38,327 nucleotides of DNA from Ghiorsea sp. (GTDB lineage Bacteria; Pseudomonadota; Zetaproteobacteria; Mariprofundales; Mariprofundaceae): NCBI GenBank assembly GCA_027055255.1, contig JALUNK010000064.1:1-38327 (forward strand). The letters are read 5' to 3'. Of this stretch, positions 1-8,591 are shown piece by piece. A program made the translations under genes and the position numbers. How positions within the stretch are numbered: position 1 is the stretch's first letter; every line of letters begins with the position of its first letter. The notes under the pieces were generated by a model, which saw only the letters and a list, made by a program, of their open reading frames with translations, did no database searches and had not been told where the DNA came from.

Positions 1-2
1 AC

Positions 3-284
3 TACAACTTGGTTCGCTTGAAAAAGAAATCTGAGCCTGCGAAGAAAATGCGTGCTTATCTTGAGTCATTGGATGGCTATTTGGCTAACCAAGTCTTCTT
101 TATTGGTGAGCAATATACCTTAGCTGATATTACCCTTGCACCGATTTTGTGGCGCTTAGAATCCAATGGCATTAGCACCATTGATTGGCCACATTTGGAA
201 GCATACATGGACAGAGTGTTTGAACGTCCTGCGTTTGGTCGTTCATTATCTGAACATGAGAAGATGTTACGCGATAGCCTGTAG
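3..284 (+). CDS. sspA: Stringent starvation protein A, C-terminal part (window edge)
   Basis: The reading frame is open from the window edge, so only the C-terminal part is present. It matches the all-helical C-terminal domain of the glutathione S-transferase fold. The segment LADITLAPILWRL followed by YMDRVFERPAF is characteristic of SspA, a GST-like protein that binds RNA polymerase and is known in other proteobacteria for stress and stationary-phase roles. There is no catalytic part to judge. The gene is followed directly by a strong hairpin terminator and then mnmA on the same strand. A generic GST is the alternative, but the APILWRL segment favours SspA. Confidence 0.8.
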   Translation, partial: YNLVRLKKKSEPAKKMRAYLESLDGYLANQVFFIGEQYTLADITLAPILWRLESNGISTIDWPHLEAYMDRVFERPAFGRSLSEHEKMLRDSL

Positions 285-305
285 GCTTTGCTTTAAACCT
301 TTGCT

Positions 306-341
306 AAAGCCTACATTGTTGCGAAACGTGTAGGCTTTTTT
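306..341 (+). terminator. Rho-independent terminator after sspA
   Basis: AAAGCCTACA (306-315) pairs perfectly with TGTAGGCTTT (329-338) and is followed by a T run. A further copy of GTAGGCTTT at 281-289 overlaps the sspA stop codon and could pair instead with 306-314, so two mutually exclusive hairpins are possible. Confidence 0.85.
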
Positions 342-370
342 GTTTCACTTTAAAAATTCATGGAGAACCC

Positions 371-1486
371 TTGAGCACAGACATTCAATCACTTAAACCT
401 GACTTATCGCACCTTAAAGGCGTGCGCATCATTGCTGCGATGTCGGGTGGTGTGGATTCTTCTGTGGTGGCTGCATTGCTTAAAGAAGCGGGTGCAGATG
501 TGATTGGTGTGTTCTTGCATGTTTGGGACTACAACCGTGATGAAGTGTCAGGTCATGGCTCGTGCTGTTCGCTAGATGATGCTTATGATGCAAGGCGGGT
601 CTGCGACCAAATCGGCATTCCATTTTATAATATGGATATGCGCGAAAATTTTCGTGAAAATGTCATCAACCCATTCATTGAAGATTACGAAACAGGACGT
701 ACGCCCAACCCATGTGAGCGTTGCAATCGCTTTGTGAAATTCGGGGCATTGCTTGATGCTGCTGATGAATTGGAAGCTGCATATGTGGCGACTGGGCATT
801 ATGTGCAACGCAATGATGATGAGATGGGCGTGCATATCTATCGTGGTAACGACCAAATCAAAGACCAAAGCTATTTCCTTGCTACCACCAACAAAGAGCA
901 AGTCGCTCGCATCTTGTTTCCTGTAGGTCATTTGCAAAAAGATGGTACGCGCATTTTAGCCCGTCATTATGATTTGATGACGGCTGAAAAGCATGAAAGC
1001 CAAGACATCTGCTTTATTCCTGCTGGCAATCGTATTGCATTCTTGAAAAAAGAAGGTGCGGAAGCTGGGTTTCGCGCTGGCGATATTATGGATAGAGAGG
1101 GAACAATCCTTGGTCGCCATAAGGGCATTGCCCACTTCACACTGGGTCAACGTAAAGGTTTGGGGCTTCCTAACGGCCCTTGGCATGTTGTAGAGCTTGA
1201 TGGCACGACTGCGCGCGTGATTGTCGCCCCACCTGCTGATGCCTTGATTACGCACGTGAACGTGGCGGAAACCACGTGGCTGCGCGACATCAAAGAAGGC
1301 GAACAAGTCCTATCCAAAGTGCGTTATCAAATGCGTCCATCGCCATGCACCATCACACTTGATGGTGACAATACTTTACTTACCTTTGATGAACCTCAAA
1401 AACCCACTGCTCCAGGGCAAGTCGCTGCATTTTATGTTGGTGATGAACTTGTGGGTGGCGGTATTGTTTCAAGCATCATCAAATAA
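371..1486 (+). CDS. mnmA: tRNA-specific 2-thiouridylase MnmA
   Basis: MnmA transfers sulfur to U34 of the wobble position in tRNAs for Lys, Glu and Gln, using ATP to adenylate the base. The 371-residue product has the PP-loop SGGVDSS at residues 25-31, the NPCERCN segment with Cys118 and the SQDICFIP segment with Cys214. The two cysteines correspond to the catalytic pair of the E. coli enzyme. The middle contains GHYV and KDQSYFLA, both family hallmarks. The start is TTG, chosen because GGAG lies five bases upstream and the next ATG would fall inside the PP-loop. The last 53 codons plus downstream DNA are present again, diverged, at 2554-2949. The gene is intact and presumably functional. Confidence 0.95.
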   Translation: MSTDIQSLKPDLSHLKGVRIIAAMSGGVDSSVVAALLKEAGADVIGVFLHVWDYNRDEVSGHGSCCSLDDAYDARRVCDQIGIPFYNMDMRENFRENVINPFIEDYETGRTPNPCERCNRFVKFGALLDAADELEAAYVATGHYVQRNDDEMGVHIYRGNDQIKDQSYFLATTNKEQVARILFPVGHLQKDGTRILARHYDLMTAEKHESQDICFIPAGNRIAFLKKEGAEAGFRAGDIMDREGTILGRHKGIAHFTLGQRKGLGLPNGPWHVVELDGTTARVIVAPPADALITHVNVAETTWLRDIKEGEQVLSKVRYQMRPSPCTITLDGDNTLLTFDEPQKPTAPGQVAAFYVGDELVGGGIVSSIIK

Positions 1487-1822
1487 ACACTAACAGATAC
1501 AGCTTTATCACTGTCACCCCGAGCGGCAGTCGAGGGGTCTCTTAGATTTCTCCACTTCCCCCAGGGGATACTCTCTTGCTTCGCAATTCACCTAATCGGT
1601 CGAAATGACAAACTCACCACGAAGAACACGAAGAATAAAAATGGTAGGCTAATACCTGTACAAGCTTGATATGTCCCCCTGTTATAGCTGCGCCAAGCAA
1701 AAGGTGGAAGAAGGGATAAAAGCAAAACACGCTTTGTTTTGCGCCCGATTTCCAGCTTTTGAGAGGATATACGCAGATATTAAGGGCGACTTTTTTGGTT
1801 CGTTTTTTTGGTCGTGCAAAAA
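1325..1822 (+). repeat. Direct repeat copy A: mnmA 3' end plus downstream DNA
   Basis: This segment is the left copy of a long imperfect direct repeat. It covers the last 53 codons of mnmA, the stop codon and about 335 bases of non-coding DNA. It aligns base by base with 2554-2949 except for a 100-base insertion at 1519-1618 found only here. Both copies keep an 8-bp stem (GCAAAACA/TGTTTTGC, 1722-1742 here) although the 5-base loops differ. The stretch 1487-1932 has no gene that I can support; it holds this repeat tail and two REP-like elements. Confidence 0.9.
1514..1618. repeat. REP-like/MITE-like insertion with TCACC direct repeats
   Basis: Compared with copy B, copy A has 100 extra bases (1519-1618) bounded by TCACC at 1514-1518 and 1614-1618. 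Copy B has a single TCACC at the same place, so copy B looks like an empty site. The insert carries TGTCA near one end (1512-1516) and TGACA near the other (1606-1610), and the sequence CCCGAGCGGCAGTCGAGG resembles dispersed short repeats common in many bacteria. No transposase is present, so any mobilisation would have to act in trans. Confidence 0.6.
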
Positions 1823-1878
1823 ATGAACATAAAAACTAACGGCAAAGTACGCTAAGGTCGCAGAGTTGCCTAGTTTTC

Positions 1879-1909
1879 TTGTCATGCTGAGCGTAGTCGA
1901 AGCATCTGT
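1879..1909. repeat. Second, partial REP-like repeat
   Basis: GTCATGCTGAGCGTAGTCGA followed by AGCATCTG shares the GTCA..C.GAGCG.AGTCGA core with the element at 1514-1618. It lies just downstream of the toxin gene and looks like one half of the same class of dispersed palindromic repeat. Confidence 0.5.
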
Positions 1910-1932
1910 CCTCTATGGGTTAAACCGATAAC

Positions 1933-2214
1933 CTAGCGTTTAGCCGCCGCCTGATACACCTTGTTTCGTTTGCGCTTACCCACAGCCACAACCAACACCA
2001 CAACTTCGGAGTCAATGACTTCATACACCAAACGAAAACCCGATTGTCTCAGTTTAATTTTATAGCGGTTTGTTGTGCCAAAGAGGCGAGAAGCAGGTAC
2101 GATAGGATGCTTTAATCGCTCTGCTAACTTTTTCTTAAATTGCTTCTGAACAGTGCTATCAAGAGCATTCCATTCTTTAAGAGCTTCGCTGACAAATTCA
2201 AGATTATAGGTCAT
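1933..2214 (-). CDS. relE: RelE-family mRNA interferase toxin
   Basis: The 93-residue product matches the RelE family of type II toxins, which cut mRNA in the ribosomal A site. Counting from the ATG at 2214, the residues Lys52, Lys54, Arg61, Arg81 and Tyr87 fall exactly where the key residues of E. coli RelE are, in the segments YKIKLR, GFRLVYEV and VGKRKRNKVY. All are intact, so an active toxin is likely. A TTG one codon upstream is a less likely start. The gene overlaps the end of the antitoxin gene by 11 bases, which implies translational coupling. The pair sits between two copies of the mnmA 3' end. Confidence 0.9.
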   Translation of the reverse strand: MTYNLEFVSEALKEWNALDSTVQKQFKKKLAERLKHPIVPASRLFGTTNRYKIKLRQSGFRLVYEVIDSEVVVLVVAVGKRKRNKVYQAAAKR

Positions 2215-2452
2215 CAAGATCTACAGTAATTCGCTCTTGTGAATCTCTTGTATTCGCCAGTGCATTCAACTCTAAATCCTCAAGCCTATCCATCAACGCT
2301 TCATAAGCTTCGGCTGGCACACAATAGAATGCAGGATGATTTCGGCTCAGTACGGCAATGGGAAACCCTTCACCTTGCTCCACAACTTTAATTGGATTTT
2401 TCTTTAAATCAGAAACACTTACAACCGTATCTGCCAACACTGTAGAAACCAT
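2204..2452 (-). CDS. Phd/YefM-family antitoxin
   Basis: This small acidic protein precedes and overlaps the RelE-type toxin gene. The N-terminal part (DTVVSVSDLKKNP, then GFPIAVLSRNHPAFYCVP) has the Phd/YefM DNA-binding fold signature, and the acidic C-terminal tail (ITVDLDDL) is the expected toxin-neutralising part. I chose the ATG at 2452 because GAGAGG lies six bases upstream; the ATG at 2455 is equally in frame but close to that site, and a longer frame to 2485 has no support. Known family members bind their own promoter and repress it together with the toxin. Pairing of a Phd/YefM-type antitoxin with a RelE-type toxin is a known combination. Confidence 0.85.
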   Translation of the reverse strand: MVSTVLADTVVSVSDLKKNPIKVVEQGEGFPIAVLSRNHPAFYCVPAEAYEALMDRLEDLELNALANTRDSQERITVDLDDL

Positions 2453-2469
2453 CATACACCTCTCAAGAC

Positions 2470-2479
2470 CTGTTAACAG
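2470..2479. promoter_or_regulatory. Palindrome, candidate antitoxin operator
   Basis: CTGTTAACAG is a perfect 10-base palindrome between the predicted -10 box and the start of the antitoxin gene. Autoregulated TA operons usually have such an operator here. The operator role is inferred. Confidence 0.45.
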
Positions 2480-2484
2480 CATCA

Positions 2485-2513
2485 AGTTTAGTGCTATTAA
2501 ACAGTCTTTTCAA
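2485..2513 (-). promoter_or_regulatory. Predicted promoter of the toxin-antitoxin operon
   Basis: On the - strand TTGAAA (+ strand 2508-2513) and TAAACT (2485-2490) are separated by exactly 17 bases. This gives a reasonable sigma-70 type promoter reading into the antitoxin gene. Confidence 0.5.
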
Positions 2514-2553
2514 GGTTGGGTTAATTTAATAAGTAAACTGCCTCTTTATTCAC

Positions 2554-2715
2554 TATCAAATGCGTCCATCGCCATGCTCTATTACAATTGATAGTGACAA
2601 TACTTCACTTACCTTTGATGAACCTCAAAAACCCACTGCACTGGGGCAAGTCGCTGCATTTTATGTGAACGATGAACTTGTGGGTGGTGGTATTGTTTCA
2701 TCCATCATCAAATAA
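2554..2715 (+). pseudogene. mnmA: Orphan mnmA 3'-end fragment
   Basis: Fifty-three codons and the stop codon of mnmA are repeated here in an open frame but without any 5' part of the gene. By hand alignment, 16 of 162 bases differ from the intact gene, in 11 codons; six changes alter the amino acid (for example Gly to Asn and Pro to Leu) and five are silent. The fragment has no start site of its own and cannot make a functional thiouridylase. It is either the displaced original tail of mnmA or a tail imported from a related strain. Confidence 0.9.
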
Positions 2716-2949
2716 ACACTAGCAGGTATAGCTTTACCATTGTCACCACGAAGCACACGAAGAATAAAAATGGTAGGCTAACACCTCTACAAGCTTGATA
2801 TGCTCCCCTGTTATAGCTGCGCCAAGCAAAAGGTGGAAGAAGGGGCAAAAGCAAAACACACACTGTTTTGCCCCGATTTCCAACTTTTGAGAGGATCTAC
2901 GCAGATATTAAGGGCGACTTTTTTGGTTCGTTTTTCTGTCGCGCAAAAA
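2554..2949 (+). repeat. Direct repeat copy B
   Basis: This is the right copy of the imperfect direct repeat described at 1325-1822. Homology begins abruptly at TATCAAATGCG and ends at GCGCAAAAA, seven bases before the end of the lipoprotein gene on the other strand. It lacks the 100-base REP-like insertion. The shared stem GCAAAACA/TGTTTTGC is at 2851-2871, and here a longer alternative stem, GGGGCAAAA (2842-2850) with TTTTGCCCC (2866-2874), can also form. Confidence 0.9.
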
Positions 2950-2956
2950 TCCTAGA

Positions 2957-3334
2957 CTATTTTTCTAAACGAACCAAGTCACCCTTAATCAAAATACAGT
3001 TACTTCTATAACCTAAGAAGCCAAAGTCATTTTCTGTAATTAGGACATTAACCAACATATCACCATCCGTTCCTGAATCTTGACCACTGCGTATCGCATT
3101 ATCCATAGCAATTTGTTGACGGTTCTCATCATCACCAAAAGGAAACCCTAAAAAGGCTCTACTACAAGCTTCACCTTCTGTTCTAACAGATGTATTATTT
3201 GATACATTGTAATCCAAATTTCTAACATTATGTGTTGAAGCTGCCGTAAAGTGACCAAGACTGCTTGTGGTTGAACATGCCGTCATCATCAAACATGATG
3301 CAGCAATAGATATTTTAAGTACTTTGTTTAACAT
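2957..3334 (-). CDS. Small predicted lipoprotein of unknown function
   Basis: The 125-residue product starts at the ATG at 3334, which has GGGAG seven or eight bases upstream; an in-frame extension to 3367 lacks this. It begins with a basic residue and a hydrophobic segment ending in the lipobox MTAC, so the mature protein should be lipidated on its cysteine and held in the inner or outer membrane. The mature part contains GEACSRAFLGFPFGDD, an AMDNAIRSG segment and a C-terminal GYRSNCILIKGDLVRLE strand. The overall layout faintly recalls TRL-like small lipoproteins, but I cannot assign a family. It is monocistronic, lies in the accessory island and has a homopolymer in its predicted promoter. 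Confidence 0.75.
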   Translation of the reverse strand: MLNKVLKISIAASCLMMTACSTTSSLGHFTAASTHNVRNLDYNVSNNTSVRTEGEACSRAFLGFPFGDDENRQQIAMDNAIRSGQDSGTDGDMLVNVLITENDFGFLGYRSNCILIKGDLVRLEK

Positions 3335-3362
3335 TAGTTCTCCCTCAGTATGAAATGAACAA

Positions 3363-3392
3363 AACATACCTGCTCAAGGGGGGGGGGGTCAA
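3363..3392 (-). promoter_or_regulatory. Predicted lipoprotein promoter with homopolymeric spacer
   Basis: On the - strand TTGACC (+ strand 3387-3392) and TATGTT (3363-3368) lie 18 bases apart, and nine of the 18 spacer bases are C from the homopolymer. The leader to the lipoprotein ATG would be about 20 bases. A change of one or two bases in the tract would move the spacer through 17-19 bases and alter promoter strength. Confidence 0.5.
3378..3388. repeat. G11 homopolymer tract (C11 on the - strand)
   Basis: Eleven consecutive G bases, unlike anything else in this AT-leaning window. The tract overlaps the predicted -35 box and spacer of the lipoprotein gene. Tracts of this length are prone to slipped-strand change, and also to sequencing error. 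Confidence 0.9.
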
Positions 3393-3421
3393 CTTAATAA
3401 AGGAGCCTGCTCAATAAAAGT

Positions 3422-3466
3422 TTCCTCAGAGCCTTTAGTCTGCGTCATAGACATAATAAAAATCAA
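3422..3466 (-). pseudogene. thrB: Decayed, internally deleted thrB remnant
   Basis: Positions 3422-3448 match 3705-3731 inside thrB at 24 of 27 bases (the codons for MTQTKDPEE). Positions 3452-3466 match 3959-3973 of thrB at 15 of 15 bases (the codons around IDFYY). The two pieces are adjacent here but about 220 bases apart in thrB, and join at a short shared ATGA(T/C)GC sequence, as expected from a deletion between microhomologies. In-frame stops show that it is not coding. Confidence 0.6.
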
Positions 3467-3581
3467 GCAAAAGTCAGAAGAATAAAATCACCTTGATATT
3501 GATACACAATCCTAGGAGACCAATAGCCCGCCAACCCGTGTTTGAGTTGCTCTGGCTTCTAATGCCTCATTCCTCAAGTTT

Positions 3582-4616
3582 TCACTCTTTTCCTCCACCT
3601 GATTCAAGCTCGCTGATCGATTCAATTAACCGTTTCGCATTGGCTGGAGAGCGTAAAAGATAATTCGTTTCATCATCTCGGTGTAATAATAATTTCCTGC
3701 GATATTCCTCAGGGTCTTTGGTCTGCGTCATCGCACCACCCCTTGGATACAAAGCATCAAACAAGCGTGACACCCAGAAACGCAATGCACCCAAACGCAA
3801 TAAACCATTCAGCACATCTTTTTCATCAGCATGAAGTGGGCGTTTGGATTCATAACCCTCTAAAAATACGGCCATACGTTGTTTGTCATCATCACCAAGC
3901 ACAATCGCTTGCGCATTGATAGCAATGGCAATATCCATAGCATAAGCGGCATCATGAGCATAATAAAAATCAATCACACCCGAAACATCTTCACCCTCAA
4001 ACAAGATATTATCTACGAATAAATCGCCATGAATCACCCCTTTAGGCAAACCATCAAACTTATGCTGTTTTTGATAAGCAAGTTCATCATTCAGCAAAGC
4101 AAGCGCATCTGCGCCATAAGCCTTTTCCACATCAGTTTGCATGGCTTTGATATTATCTTCCAGCCAAGCAAAGCCTGTAGGGTTTTCTCTATGCTCATCA
4201 AAGCTGCTGCCTGCGATGTGTAGCGTGGCTAAGGCTTCGCCTGATGACCTAAGCTGGGTTTCGTTTAAGAAGTCTAAAGTCTCTCCTGTTAGGCAAGACA
4301 CAATACAGCCTTGCTTGACCCCATCTTCAGCCTCAAAATCAAAAATAAGCGAATCATCTTTACGCACTTGCACATCTGGGCTTTTCAAACCATGCGTTGC
4401 TAAATGTTTCATCAAACGCATAAAATAAGGCAGCTCATCGCCTGCCAAGCGTTCAAAAATAGTCAGCACATAGCGCTCACCATTTTGCATATCAATAAAG
4501 AAATTACTGTTTTCAATGCCTGCAGCAATGCCTGTAAAACTTTTCAGTTTTCCCAGTGAATAATCTTTTAAAATCGTTTCAAAATGATGTGTTGTTAATT
4601 CTGTATAAACGGACAT
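3582..4616 (-). CDS. thrB: Homoserine kinase, ThrB2 type (APH fold)
   Basis: It phosphorylates homoserine with ATP in threonine synthesis. The 344-residue product starts MSVYTELT and shows LKSFTGIAAGIENSNFFI near residue 30, typical of the Pseudomonas-type homoserine kinase that belongs to the aminoglycoside phosphotransferase/choline kinase fold rather than the GHMP fold. The catalytic loop HGDLFVDN (His196, Asp198) and the metal-binding IDFYYAHD (Asp216) are intact. It is the last gene of the 13-gene directon, 17 bases after the flavodoxin-like gene. A remnant of a second copy lies just downstream. I saw no convincing terminator in the 115 bases after the stop. Confidence 0.92.
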   Translation of the reverse strand: MSVYTELTTHHFETILKDYSLGKLKSFTGIAAGIENSNFFIDMQNGERYVLTIFERLAGDELPYFMRLMKHLATHGLKSPDVQVRKDDSLIFDFEAEDGVKQGCIVSCLTGETLDFLNETQLRSSGEALATLHIAGSSFDEHRENPTGFAWLEDNIKAMQTDVEKAYGADALALLNDELAYQKQHKFDGLPKGVIHGDLFVDNILFEGEDVSGVIDFYYAHDAAYAMDIAIAINAQAIVLGDDDKQRMAVFLEGYESKRPLHADEKDVLNGLLRLGALRFWVSRLFDALYPRGGAMTQTKDPEEYRRKLLLHRDDETNYLLRSPANAKRLIESISELESGGGKE

Positions 4617-4633
4617 GCGTCAATAAATCCTTT

Positions 4634-5188
4634 TTATGATTTAAATTTAAGTGCTGTTTCTACAACATGCGCACCATAAGCACGCGCTGCAACCAAGGCA
4701 GCCTCTGTCACACCTTCGGGCATACCTTCATCATTGCCTGTGCGCACCGCTAAACCCCAGTGTAAACCAGCATCAGCATAACCTAATAAGGAACGTGGAA
4801 AACCACACACCAACATACCTTGCTCTAAGAAATTGGCATGAAGCGACATCAATGTTTGCTCAACACCACCACCTGCACCACCAAAGCCACCATAAGTGGC
4901 AAACACACCACCAATTTTACCTTCCAAATCACCTGCCACCCAAAGCTTAGAACCCGCATCAATCAACTGCTTCATTTGCCAAGCCATACTTCCCATATGC
5001 ACAGGTGAACCAAAAATAATTGCATCAGCATCCCGCATATCATCAAGGCTTACATCTGCGGCTTGTTTTACAGATATTTTTTCTGCTTCGCCCGCATCTT
5101 GCAGAGCCGCCATTGCACCCGCAGCAATCGCATCTGCCACACTTTGCGTATGCTGATAATCGGAATGACAAACAATGAGAACCTGCAT
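4634..5188 (-). CDS. Flavodoxin-fold protein, WrbA/NAD(P)H:quinone reductase-like
   Basis: The 184-residue product begins MQVLIVCHSDYQHTQSVADA, a flavodoxin-type phosphate-binding loop at residues 8-15, followed by FGSPVHMGSMAWQMKQ near residue 60 and GKIGGVFATYGGFGGAGG near 90-105. These are the segments that bind FMN in the WrbA-like branch, which reduces quinones with two electrons. The usual WrbA residues are only partly kept, so I call the fold and not the enzyme. Its start codon overlaps the algH stop codon by one base and thrB follows 17 bases later, so it is co-transcribed with both. Confidence 0.75.
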   Translation of the reverse strand: MQVLIVCHSDYQHTQSVADAIAAGAMAALQDAGEAEKISVKQAADVSLDDMRDADAIIFGSPVHMGSMAWQMKQLIDAGSKLWVAGDLEGKIGGVFATYGGFGGAGGGVEQTLMSLHANFLEQGMLVCGFPRSLLGYADAGLHWGLAVRTGNDEGMPEGVTEAALVAARAYGAHVVETALKFKS

Positions 5189-5766
5189 TATGCATGACCA
5201 ATTTGGTGAGATAATTGCGCGCGTTCAAAGCCTATGCCTCGCGCTGCAACAGCCCACATTTGTTCAGGAGGTGTATCAAAAATCATATCTTTGGTTGGTG
5301 TGGCAAGAAGCCAATCGTTCTGCATCAGTTCATCTTCAAGCTGACCTGCTTCCCAACCTGCATATCCCAATAATAGTGAGAATCGTTTGGGACCTTTACC
5401 TTCTGCAATGAGTTCCAGAATATCTTTGGATGTGGTTAAATTAAAATCTGCACCCACACGCATGGTGGAATCATATGTTTTATCGATTTCATGCAGCACA
5501 AAACCACGATACGTGTCCACAGGCCCTGCTTCATACACAATTTGTTCTTCAAAGCGCATTTGTGCTACACCTTTTTCACGCTCTGACTCAAACAAAGCCA
5601 TATCATCCAACACTTCAAACACATTAATCGGTTGCGGTTTATTGAGCACCAACCCCATAGAGCCTTCATCATCGTGCTGGCAAAGCAAGACCACACTATC
5701 GTGAAAAAAACCTTCGCCCAAAGATGGGGTTGCAATCAATAGTTTTCCTGCAATATCATCAATCAT
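5188..5766 (-). CDS. algH: YqgE/AlgH family protein
   Basis: The 192-residue product has the family opening GKLLIATPSLGEGFFHDSVV, then GSMGLVLNKP at about residue 35 and the LLLGYAGWEAGQLEDEL segment near the C-terminal third, which together are diagnostic of the YqgE/AlgH (UPF0301) family. The biochemical role is not settled; AlgH affects alginate regulation in Pseudomonas. Length is normal for the family. The start overlaps the pdxA stop by four bases (ATGA) and the stop overlaps the next gene by one base. Confidence 0.93.
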   Translation of the reverse strand: MIDDIAGKLLIATPSLGEGFFHDSVVLLCQHDDEGSMGLVLNKPQPINVFEVLDDMALFESEREKGVAQMRFEEQIVYEAGPVDTYRGFVLHEIDKTYDSTMRVGADFNLTTSKDILELIAEGKGPKRFSLLLGYAGWEAGQLEDELMQNDWLLATPTKDMIFDTPPEQMWAVAARGIGFERAQLSHQIGHA

Positions 5767-6752
5767 AAGCTGCTCCGATGAAAGTTGTTCGCCATGTCTA
5801 TGGCTGCTATCAAACTATTGTAGCTGATTTTACCCGTACCTGCACGACTTAGTGCAGTACCATGGTCAACACTGGTTCGAATAAATGGCAAACCAAGGGT
5901 AACATTTACTGCATCACCAAAACTAAGCGCTTTAATCGGAATCAATGCTTGGTCGTGATAACAACACACAATCGCATCATAATTTTTGCGCATATCCACA
6001 GAGAAAAGTGTATCTGCGGGTAGAGGTCCATCCACACGAATACCTTCATGCTTCAATGCATCTAAAGCAGGCTGTAAAATTTCAATTTCTTCTCTACCAA
6101 AATGACCTTGCTCACCTGCGTGTGGATTTAAACCTGTCAAAGCTAACCTTGGTTGCTTTATGCCCATTTGCTGCTGCATGGCTTGGTAAGTGATACGAAT
6201 AATCGTTTGGGTATCTTCTTGATTAAGCAAGTTTGAAACATCACTAATCGCAACATGTGTTGTTAATAAGGCAACACGAACCGCACTGGATGCCAACATC
6301 ATCACCACTCTATCTACACCTGCAATGTCTGCTAAAAACTCGGTGTGCCCTGGAAAATCAAAACCACCATCTTTTAAAACTGCTTTTTCAATCGGAGCCG
6401 TGACTAAACCCAAAGCTTGCCCGCTCAAACACATTTCTGCCGCTACACGAATACATGTGACCACGGCTTCGGCTTCTAAAGCGCTTGGTTTACCCGCAAT
6501 CACCGCGCGCGCTTCATCATTTGTGGGATCAAACACCCATAATGGGTTTGGCTTTGTATCCTTCCGAAAACTGGCATCGCATGTTGCTATTTTAATATCT
6601 AAGCCGAGCTCTGTAGCACGCCCAGTTAACCAACAAGGCTTGGCAACCACTACAATATTGCGGAATAGTTCCGGCTTAGCTTCATAAGCCAGTAGCACGC
6701 AATCAGGACCAATACCTGCTGGCTCCCCTAGCGTTAAAACAAAAGGTATCAC
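5763..6752 (-). CDS. pdxA: 4-hydroxythreonine-4-phosphate dehydrogenase PdxA
   Basis: PdxA oxidises 4-phosphohydroxy-L-threonine in the deoxyxylulose-phosphate-dependent route to pyridoxal phosphate. The 329-residue product begins with LGEPAGIGPD and contains FPGHTEFLAD, LLTTHVAI, GLNPHAGE and CYHDQALIPIK. The last three supply the conserved histidines that bind the divalent metal. The SVDHGTA segment near the C-terminus is also typical. The start is GTG, six bases after the surA stop. The pairing surA-pdxA is common in proteobacteria, where these genes often share an operon with lptD. No anomaly was seen. Confidence 0.95.
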   Translation of the reverse strand: MIPFVLTLGEPAGIGPDCVLLAYEAKPELFRNIVVVAKPCWLTGRATELGLDIKIATCDASFRKDTKPNPLWVFDPTNDEARAVIAGKPSALEAEAVVTCIRVAAEMCLSGQALGLVTAPIEKAVLKDGGFDFPGHTEFLADIAGVDRVVMMLASSAVRVALLTTHVAISDVSNLLNQEDTQTIIRITYQAMQQQMGIKQPRLALTGLNPHAGEQGHFGREEIEILQPALDALKHEGIRVDGPLPADTLFSVDMRKNYDAIVCCYHDQALIPIKALSFGDAVNVTLGLPFIRTSVDHGTALSRAGTGKISYNSLIAAIDMANNFHRSSL

Positions 6753-6758
6753 GCTGGT

Positions 6759-8591
6759 TTATTTCACAGTACGTTCACTGATAATTTTCCAATCACCATC
6801 TATATTTTCCATCACAATCACTTTGCGATCAACATCGTTCAAACGATTAGACTGAAAGTGTTGGTCAAAGCTAAACTGTATACGTTTACCTTGTTCCAAC
6901 TCCGTCTCAATGACATTGCTTATTTCCACATGAATATTTTCATGTTTCGCTGTCACGCGCTGTTTGTACATTTTCCATTTGGCAAAGCTTGTAAAACGTT
7001 TATCTGGCGACTGACTCTCATCATACATAGCAAAATAAGCATGCATATCCTTATCCTGCCAAGCACCTTTCCATGCGCTCAGGGCGAAGGATGGTGTTGA
7101 TATATCCTCTTTACTATCTTTTACATTTGATGTCGTACCTGTTGTAGTTTTTTCTGTAGAGCCCACAACTTGTGTATACGCATCGTTACTCACCGCTGCT
7201 TGGCTATACATATCTTGTGCTACTTCCATGGTTGGTATTTGAATGCTTTCGACTTCATCTATCCGTGATGAGGTTGTTAAAGCATCGCAACTCCGCTTCT
7301 CAATCTTGGCTTGCTCAATCAAAGTATTCATCCAACGTGGAACCTGCTGTTGCATCTCGGTTTGAATCAAAAGTTGCTCAACATTATCTTTGTGCGCTTC
7401 AAACGAATTAGGGTTCACTTTTCGTTTTTCAACAACACGAATAATGTGTAAACCAAATTGTGTTTCTACAACACCACTGGTTTCACCTGGCTGCATCGCA
7501 AACACAACTTTATCAAAGGCTGGAACCATTTGCCCTTTCTTAAACCAACCCAAATCACCACCACGGGAAGCACTGGGGCCTTGAGAAATCTCTTTGGCAC
7601 GCACGGCAAAAGCTTCATCTGACGAACCTTTCATTTCGTTGGCAATATCTTGAGCACGGCTTCTAATTTTTACCTGAGTATCCGTATCTGCACTATCAGG
7701 AATTTGAAGCAGGATATGTCTTGCATGCACTTCTTCATAAGGCAATAAATTTTGTGGCTTACGCATACGCTCTTCGAGAATTTTTACAATATGAAAGCCG
7801 CCAGCAGAGCGAATCGGTGGTGTAATATCACCGACAGGCACATCAAACATTTGTTTGAATGCTCCTTTAACCACACCTTGAGACACCCAGCCCATATCAC
7901 CACCTTCATTGGCATTGGGTGCATCGGACTCAAACGTTACAATCGACTTAAAATCTTCACCCGCCTTAAAGCGTTGATAATATTCCTCAGCTTGTTGGCG
8001 TTTATACTCAACTGTATCTGCATCTGCATTGGCAGGTAATGCAATAAACATTTGTGCCGTATGCACTTCACGCACAGGTTTAGGGTCTTTTAAATTTTTA
8101 CGATAATACTCACGGATAGCCTCTTCACTTACACTTATTTTTGAGCGTACAGCTACATTGATAAGGCGCGAATTTAATATTCTATCCTTCACAGTTTCTT
8201 TATAAACTTCAACATCAATACCTTGAGCTTTAAGCACATCTTCCAATTGCCCAGGCTGTAAATTGTTGCGCTTCTCAACATCTCCCATGGCTGCCTTCAC
8301 TTCTTCAGGGGAAACTTTTAAGCCTAATTTTTCTGCTTCTTGATATTGTACTGTGCGTTGTATTCGAGATTCTAAAGCTCGGTTAAATAGTGTGTTTTCA
8401 TCAGGAATGGGTGCGCCACTTTGTTCCAGCTGAGTTTTCAAACTGTTCTTCGCCGTTTGTACTTCATAACAAGTAATCACTTCACCATTCACAGTGCCTG
8501 CAATCGCATCCAAACGCTCTGCATATGCACCCTGCACGGCAAACAACAACCCTGCCAAAGTCACAACTAATGTACCTAAGATATTCAACAT
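6759..8591 (-). CDS. surA: Periplasmic chaperone SurA with extra C-terminal NTF2-like domain
   Basis: SurA escorts unfolded outer membrane proteins through the periplasm. I place the start at the ATG at 8591, with GAGAGG five bases upstream, which gives 610 residues and a clean signal peptide ending near VQGAYA; the TTG at 8618 would overlap lptD and has no such site. The SurA N-terminal helical domain is followed by two parvulin domains, at about residues 176-275 and 289-390, each with the GGDMGW or GGDLGW motif. The protein is much longer than the roughly 430 residues of E. coli SurA. After a Ser/Thr-rich linker, residues about 502-610 (SAWKGAWQDKDMHAYFAMYD ... GDWKIISE) resemble the Cds6-type NTF2-like domain seen on some L,D-transpeptidases. 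Confidence 0.93.
   Translation of the reverse strand: MLNILGTLVVTLAGLLFAVQGAYAERLDAIAGTVNGEVITCYEVQTAKNSLKTQLEQSGAPIPDENTLFNRALESRIQRTVQYQEAEKLGLKVSPEEVKAAMGDVEKRNNLQPGQLEDVLKAQGIDVEVYKETVKDRILNSRLINVAVRSKISVSEEAIREYYRKNLKDPKPVREVHTAQMFIALPANADADTVEYKRQQAEEYYQRFKAGEDFKSIVTFESDAPNANEGGDMGWVSQGVVKGAFKQMFDVPVGDITPPIRSAGGFHIVKILEERMRKPQNLLPYEEVHARHILLQIPDSADTDTQVKIRSRAQDIANEMKGSSDEAFAVRAKEISQGPSASRGGDLGWFKKGQMVPAFDKVVFAMQPGETSGVVETQFGLHIIRVVEKRKVNPNSFEAHKDNVEQLLIQTEMQQQVPRWMNTLIEQAKIEKRSCDALTTSSRIDEVESIQIPTMEVAQDMYSQAAVSNDAYTQVVGSTEKTTTGTTSNVKDSKEDISTPSFALSAWKGAWQDKDMHAYFAMYDESQSPDKRFTSFAKWKMYKQRVTAKHENIHVEISNVIETELEQGKRIQFSFDQHFQSNRLNDVDRKVIVMENIDGDWKIISERTVK

Follow-up and report, generated by a model that had tools for sequence, protein, structure and literature searches.

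Insertion with long target duplication has been described for restriction-modification systems (Nobusato et al., 2000, as cited in PMC3874152, PMC3031569, and PMC1643837). Homology-facilitated illegitimate recombination (HFIR) mostly deletes DNA of the recipient (PMC3240628). In the same study, performed in E. coli, entry of circularised fragments by a single crossover was inferred for most clones analysed, and most clones carried the homologous locus duplicated beside the insert, over 109-950 bp in those that were sequenced (PMC3240628). It is an open question how solitary toxin-antitoxin (TA) modules spread among chromosomes when no mobile element carries them, and the footprint described here, a gene end stranded beyond a TA pair, bears on it. 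The literature searched, which largely excluded subscription papers, held no description of such a footprint for TA pairs; the closest precedent was that of restriction-modification systems.

The mnmA-thrB region studied here lies on contig C64 of a Ghiorsea (Zetaproteobacteria) metagenome-assembled genome (MAG; 2.0 Mb in 234 contigs, 85% complete, 4.8% contamination). The window is the whole 38 kb stretch of DNA that was analysed. The genomes compared with it are mostly metagenome assemblies, with layouts read from assembled contigs, and the names gshA, hflX, manC, pta, and ackA rest on reading of protein sequences.

The duplicated mnmA tail and its cargo

The features of the region are as follows (positions in the window).

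371-1486, plus strand: mnmA (tRNA 2-thiouridine synthase), intact and mosaic, with the switch at about 1323 (NCBIfam equivalog PRK00143, E 8e-120; changepoint against G014 at gene position 953)
1325-1486, plus strand: tail copy 1, the mnmA 3′ end of the intact gene, probably imported (direct repeat, site comparison, changepoint)
1487-1822, plus strand: R1, downstream part of duplicate copy 1, a dispersed intergenic repeat that also carries a 91-bp insert (about 1523-1613)
1933-2217, minus strand: RelE/ParE-family toxin, ATG probably at 2214 (Pfam PF05016 ParE_toxin, E 7e-11; TIGR02385, E 4.5e-5, under its cut-off)
2204-2485, minus strand: Phd/YefM-family antitoxin, ATG probably at 2455 or 2452, overlapping the toxin start (Pfam PF02604 PhdYeFM, E 3e-9)
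2486-2553, no strand: upstream DNA of the TA operon, like the TA upstream DNA of G015 to about 2545, ending at the displaced-tail junction (by-eye comparison)
2554-2715, plus strand: tail copy 2, the displaced mnmA 3′ end, attached to no gene (direct repeat, site comparison)
2716-2949, plus strand: R2, downstream part of duplicate copy 2, without the 91-bp insert
2957-3367, minus strand: small lipoprotein-like ORF, conserved beside the same TA pair in G015 (81%)
3422-3448, minus strand: what is left of a displaced thrB 3′ end (identical to thrB 3705-3731 at 24 of 27 bases; alignment score reached by none of 1000 shuffles)
3449-3584, minus strand, limits approximate: YoeB toxin remnant (alignment to the intact yefM-yoeB behind thrB in G014)
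3582-4616, minus strand: thrB (homoserine kinase, E 2e-92), its last 30 codons (3585-3674) a captured YefM C-terminus (residues 315-344 match YefM NF008499, E 3.5e-9)

Beside the lipoprotein gene stands a run of G (3379-3389) that is also found in G015 and is a possible phase-variable tract. A search of Rfam with positions 1-8000 of the window gave no match.

The initial annotation had reported the 3′ end of mnmA as present twice, and this is confirmed: 53 codons with 234-336 bp of downstream DNA stand in two copies 1.2 kb apart. The direct repeats pair 1325-1522 with 2554-2751 (89%), 1614-1745 with 2743-2874 (92%), and 1744-1810 with 2872-2938 (96%), and a second scan returned the duplicate as 198 bp at 88.9% (E 7e-60) and 209 bp at 92% (E 4e-68). 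Scanning the 38 kb window for repeats revealed no other gene-tail duplicate comparable to this one. The 16 coding differences and six amino-acid changes that had been counted between the tails also held (T327S, L330I, G332S, L336S, P348L, and G357N); synonymous and non-synonymous counts are 7 and 9, which is uninformative. Tail 2 has lost Pro348, otherwise invariant in mnmA. The downstream part of the duplicate (about 2743-2949, and 1614-1822 in R1) belongs to an intergenic repeat that is dispersed in the genome (13 matches), and the coding part is therefore the stronger evidence. R1 and R2 are each other's closest copies of this repeat (92%; next best, 86%). The 91-bp insert, whose 5′ border is GTCACCCCGAGCGG, is missing from R2, which probably lost it, since the first bases of the insert are also present after mnmA in G014. 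The dispersed repeat occurs across Ghiorsea, and parts of it also occur alone.

The 731 bp between the copies (1823-2553) hold a complete TA operon, as annotated, with intact toxin and antitoxin genes on the minus strand, convergent with mnmA. The genes are adjacent and overlapping, and with Pfam scores of 43.0 bits for the toxin (cut-off 23) and 36.8 bits for the antitoxin (cut-off 29.8) they are predicted to form a type II pair of a RelE/ParE toxin and a Phd/YefM antitoxin; the functions of all TA pairs discussed here are predicted from family membership. Between the mnmA repeats only the toxin and the antitoxin were recognised, with no integrase or other recombinase, and no recombinase was recognised among the window's ORFs of at least 170 aa.

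The distribution of the pair lends no support to the earlier suggestion of a TA cassette directed at the mnmA tail. In G002 the same TA pair lies directly behind a single mnmA tail, in G005 a toxin remnant of the same family follows the mnmA tail, and in G006 an antitoxin remnant of that family lies between mnmA and thrB. G015 carries the same pair further on, with pta and ackA ahead of it and the same lipoprotein gene and thrB behind it. Related toxins are found at unrelated sites in the genus and family, as well as on 3,826 plasmid records and 6 phage records. With the same family behind a single mnmA tail in G002 and also at unrelated sites, the pair is therefore not tied to mnmA, although it has a history at the mnmA site. 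Recurrence of the layout with hflX, manC, gshA, and thrB, described below, also speaks against mnmA-specific targeting. Relatives with one mnmA tail and no TA pair beside it, sought as empty sites, do exist (G007, G011, G013, G001, and G008), none of them a near-identical strain; in G007, G011, and G013 one long gene lies between the single mnmA tail and thrB.

Comparison of the two tails with the closest relative

The mnmA gene of G014, the closest relative, is 93% identical to that of the window up to codon 318, where the second tail begins, and from there about 80% identical to the intact tail (63 of 953 bases differ before codon 318, and 29 of 148 after it). The ratio of tail to body differences, 2.96, is the highest of 78 species pairs (next, 1.86; median, 1.36), and the best changepoint, mnmA base 953 (942-968), is the start of the second tail. 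Over the same 148 bases tail 2 differs from G014 at only 19. Where the coding sequences of the two tails disagree (16 sites), G014 has the base of tail 2 in 12 cases and that of tail 1 in 3, and its codon AAC at residue 357 is that of tail 2. Trees of the two tails, proposed earlier as a check, answered in part: for the 159-bp tails the grouping of tail 2 with G014 is preferred (AU p 0.62) and that of tail 1 with G014 is rejected (AU p 0.04), while tail 1 and tail 2 as sisters are not rejected (AU p 0.31). The earlier view that the intact tail was imported and the downstream tail displaced is thus supported by the changepoint at base 953 and by G014 siding with tail 2; tail 1 as the import and tail 2 as the native, displaced copy is likely, not proven, because the tree does not reject sister tails.

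In G011 the end of contig C102 and the start of C173 (L041, L043) overlap by exactly 141 bases. The break falls in the conserved mnmA block beside codon 323 and points to variation among strains immediately after that block.

Recurrence of the layout with other genes and cargo

As read from the assembled gene orders, the layout of a rebuilt gene end, a small gene pair, and a stranded old end recurs across Ghiorsea. Other cargo between mnmA tails, another expectation raised by the initial annotation, was found in G006, where a complete mnmA is followed by a PDC-M21-like pair, a stranded mnmA tail of about 65 bp, and the antitoxin remnant of the window's TA family. The pair matches the candidate defence pair PDC-M21A/B, with the B gene split into two ORFs, and the stranded tail abuts the old TA remnant much as the mnmA tail does in G002. 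Within the window itself, thrB ends in 30 YefM codons, followed by the YoeB remnant and then the remnant of the old thrB end. In G014 the order is thrB-yefM-yoeB, with yefM intact and yoeB intact as far as the contig end.

In the window, thrB runs in frame into the last 30 residues of YefM, the 5′ part of the antitoxin gene having been deleted, and a TA remnant now forms the tail of this housekeeping enzyme.

In G009 the order is a gshA-like gene, a BrnT-BrnA pair, a stranded gshA tail, and a YefM-YoeB-like pair. The stranded tail is identical to that of G006, another species, at 114 of 120 bases (167 of 178 when DNA past the stop is included) and to its own intact copy at 102 of 120; the intact tail is closest to G002 (113 of 120). 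The two G009 tails as sister copies, the result of duplication within the genome, are rejected (AU p 0.016). Judged by these identities, the stranded tail belongs to the lineage of another species, and import is seen directly in this case, with either of the two gshA alleles as the possible earlier resident. The gshA body is a patchwork of species-like tracts within the genus, which argues that exchange between species is frequent here. Moreover, comEC is present in 13 of 16 genomes and dprA in 16 of 16, which allows natural transformation but does not show it.

G007 (about a dozen contigs, 100% complete, 0% contamination) was scanned for repeats over its 1.95 Mb without use of TA genes, as one near-complete genome, leaving out tandem paralogues and intergenic repeats. 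The scan returned hflX with a BrnT/CopG-type pair and then a stranded hflX tail, and manC with two nucleotidyltransferase/HepT-like pairs and then a stranded manC tail. Of these, BrnT and CopG score just short of their Pfam cut-offs, and Pfam gives no match for the second HepT-like partner. A VapBC/RelE cluster on contig C9 of this genome, with 25-29 bp repeats, was set aside, as the repeats are near-identical and short, like a dispersed element and not a gene tail. Short matches to the manC tail in G001 (C135 15717-15776 and C2 4695-4769; L364, L368) are possible stranded tails, in a genome that has no full manC match.

The cargo need not be a TA pair: on contig C210 of G000, gshA and a stranded gshA tail flank an AraC-type regulator and a PEBP-like gene, both named by eye from sequence. 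Conversely, most TA loci are without the footprint, given that 46 other RelE- or YefM-type loci had only one weak straddling repeat (28 bp, G001).

Origin of the locus and relation to known systems

The mnmA locus is probably, with considerable room for doubt, the footprint of one-armed homologous import of a gene tail with its cargo. What is observed is the duplication with its TA pair, the break in identity where the displaced tail starts, and the recurrence of the layout; the donor, the way in which its DNA was taken up, and the character of the second joint are inferences. In this account a second Ghiorsea lineage would have supplied DNA with the 3′ part of mnmA followed by the TA pair. 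The mnmA sequence common to both would have mediated recombination with the resident gene, and the far end would have been joined to the chromosome within the resident mnmA tail, with no long homology. Alternatively, a circularised fragment may have entered by a single crossover. The outcome would be an intact mnmA with a foreign tail, and a native tail stranded beyond the cargo. The left side is homologous, with a mosaic break present at mnmA, and tail 2 and R2 were kept, meaning that no recipient DNA of similar size was deleted. Homologous recombination with DNA of a related strain, which the initial annotation had offered as an alternative, fits best. Some points count against import: a free left crossover would not predict that the identity break and the displaced-tail start fall within about 15 bp of each other, HFIR mostly deletes recipient DNA rather than duplicating it, and sister tails are not rejected at the window. 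The conserved block AAAGTGCGTTATCAAATGCG at the break may favour both the identity break and the tail start, and single crossover of a circularised fragment would explain a duplication instead of the usual deletion.

The unrejected sister tails, together with R1 and R2 as mutual nearest copies, would also suit a tandem duplication of the mnmA tail, R, and TA pair within the genome, with the second TA copy later deleted to leave tail 2 and R2. We consider this rather unlikely, given the second deletion that it requires, the identity break against G014 exactly at the tail, the 12 of 16 sites at which G014 sides with tail 2, and its rejection for the parallel case in G009. A site-specific mobile cassette, with the tail copies as attachment sites and a recombinase from elsewhere inserting TA pairs at gene 3′ ends, would be in keeping with the coincidence of break and displaced-tail start and with the in-frame rebuilding of the gene every time. 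It is nonetheless improbable, as the target genes (mnmA, thrB, gshA, hflX, and manC) and the TA families are unrelated, one cargo is not a TA pair, displaced-tail lengths vary from about 27 to 162 coding bases, and the larger window ORFs include no recognised recombinase. The joining of mnmA haplotypes of two strains during metagenome assembly is suggested by the fragmentation and contamination of the MAG and by the G011 contigs that break at the same conserved mnmA block with their 141-base overlap. Such an artefact is very improbable, since the same layout is found with other genes in independent assemblies, including the complete and uncontaminated G007.

Import of this kind has a wider bearing, in that the stranded tail of a gene is a mark in the sequence for which any collection of genomes can be screened. 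Such marks can reveal import when the alleles do not match, as in G009, and would make it possible to measure how often such events happen, which donors they draw on, and what they carry. As a speculation that we hold with little confidence, gene-tail-anchored exchange between related strains may be a main and general route by which chromosomal TA pairs without a mobile element spread and persist. The rebuilt tail of an essential gene and the addiction module would jointly select the recombinant, so that TA pairs would accumulate after housekeeping genes, and the stranded tails that they leave could be dated.

Integrative elements that occupy gene 3′ ends likewise rebuild the gene tail and displace the old one; in contrast to them, the loci described here have no integrase, no fixed target, and inserts of about 0.6-2 kb. 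HFIR and circularised-fragment entry have a single homologous end, as the mnmA locus would have under the import reading, and a duplication of the homologous locus beside the insert was seen in the E. coli clones too; that study used laboratory constructs, and classic HFIR involves deletions and 3-10 bp of microhomology. Insertion with long target duplication, as far as it is described in the papers citing it, is similar in that a small addiction-type module without a recognised mobile element lies between long, variable direct target repeats (of the order of 100 bp), and related genomes with an unduplicated empty site exist. It differs in that the cargo here is a type II TA pair, and elsewhere once other genes, rather than a restriction-modification system, in that the insertions are at gene 3′ ends with diverged alleles as repeats, and in that allele mismatch was demonstrated here in at least one case. 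The mnmA locus has the form of an insertion with long target duplication and departs from it in its cargo.
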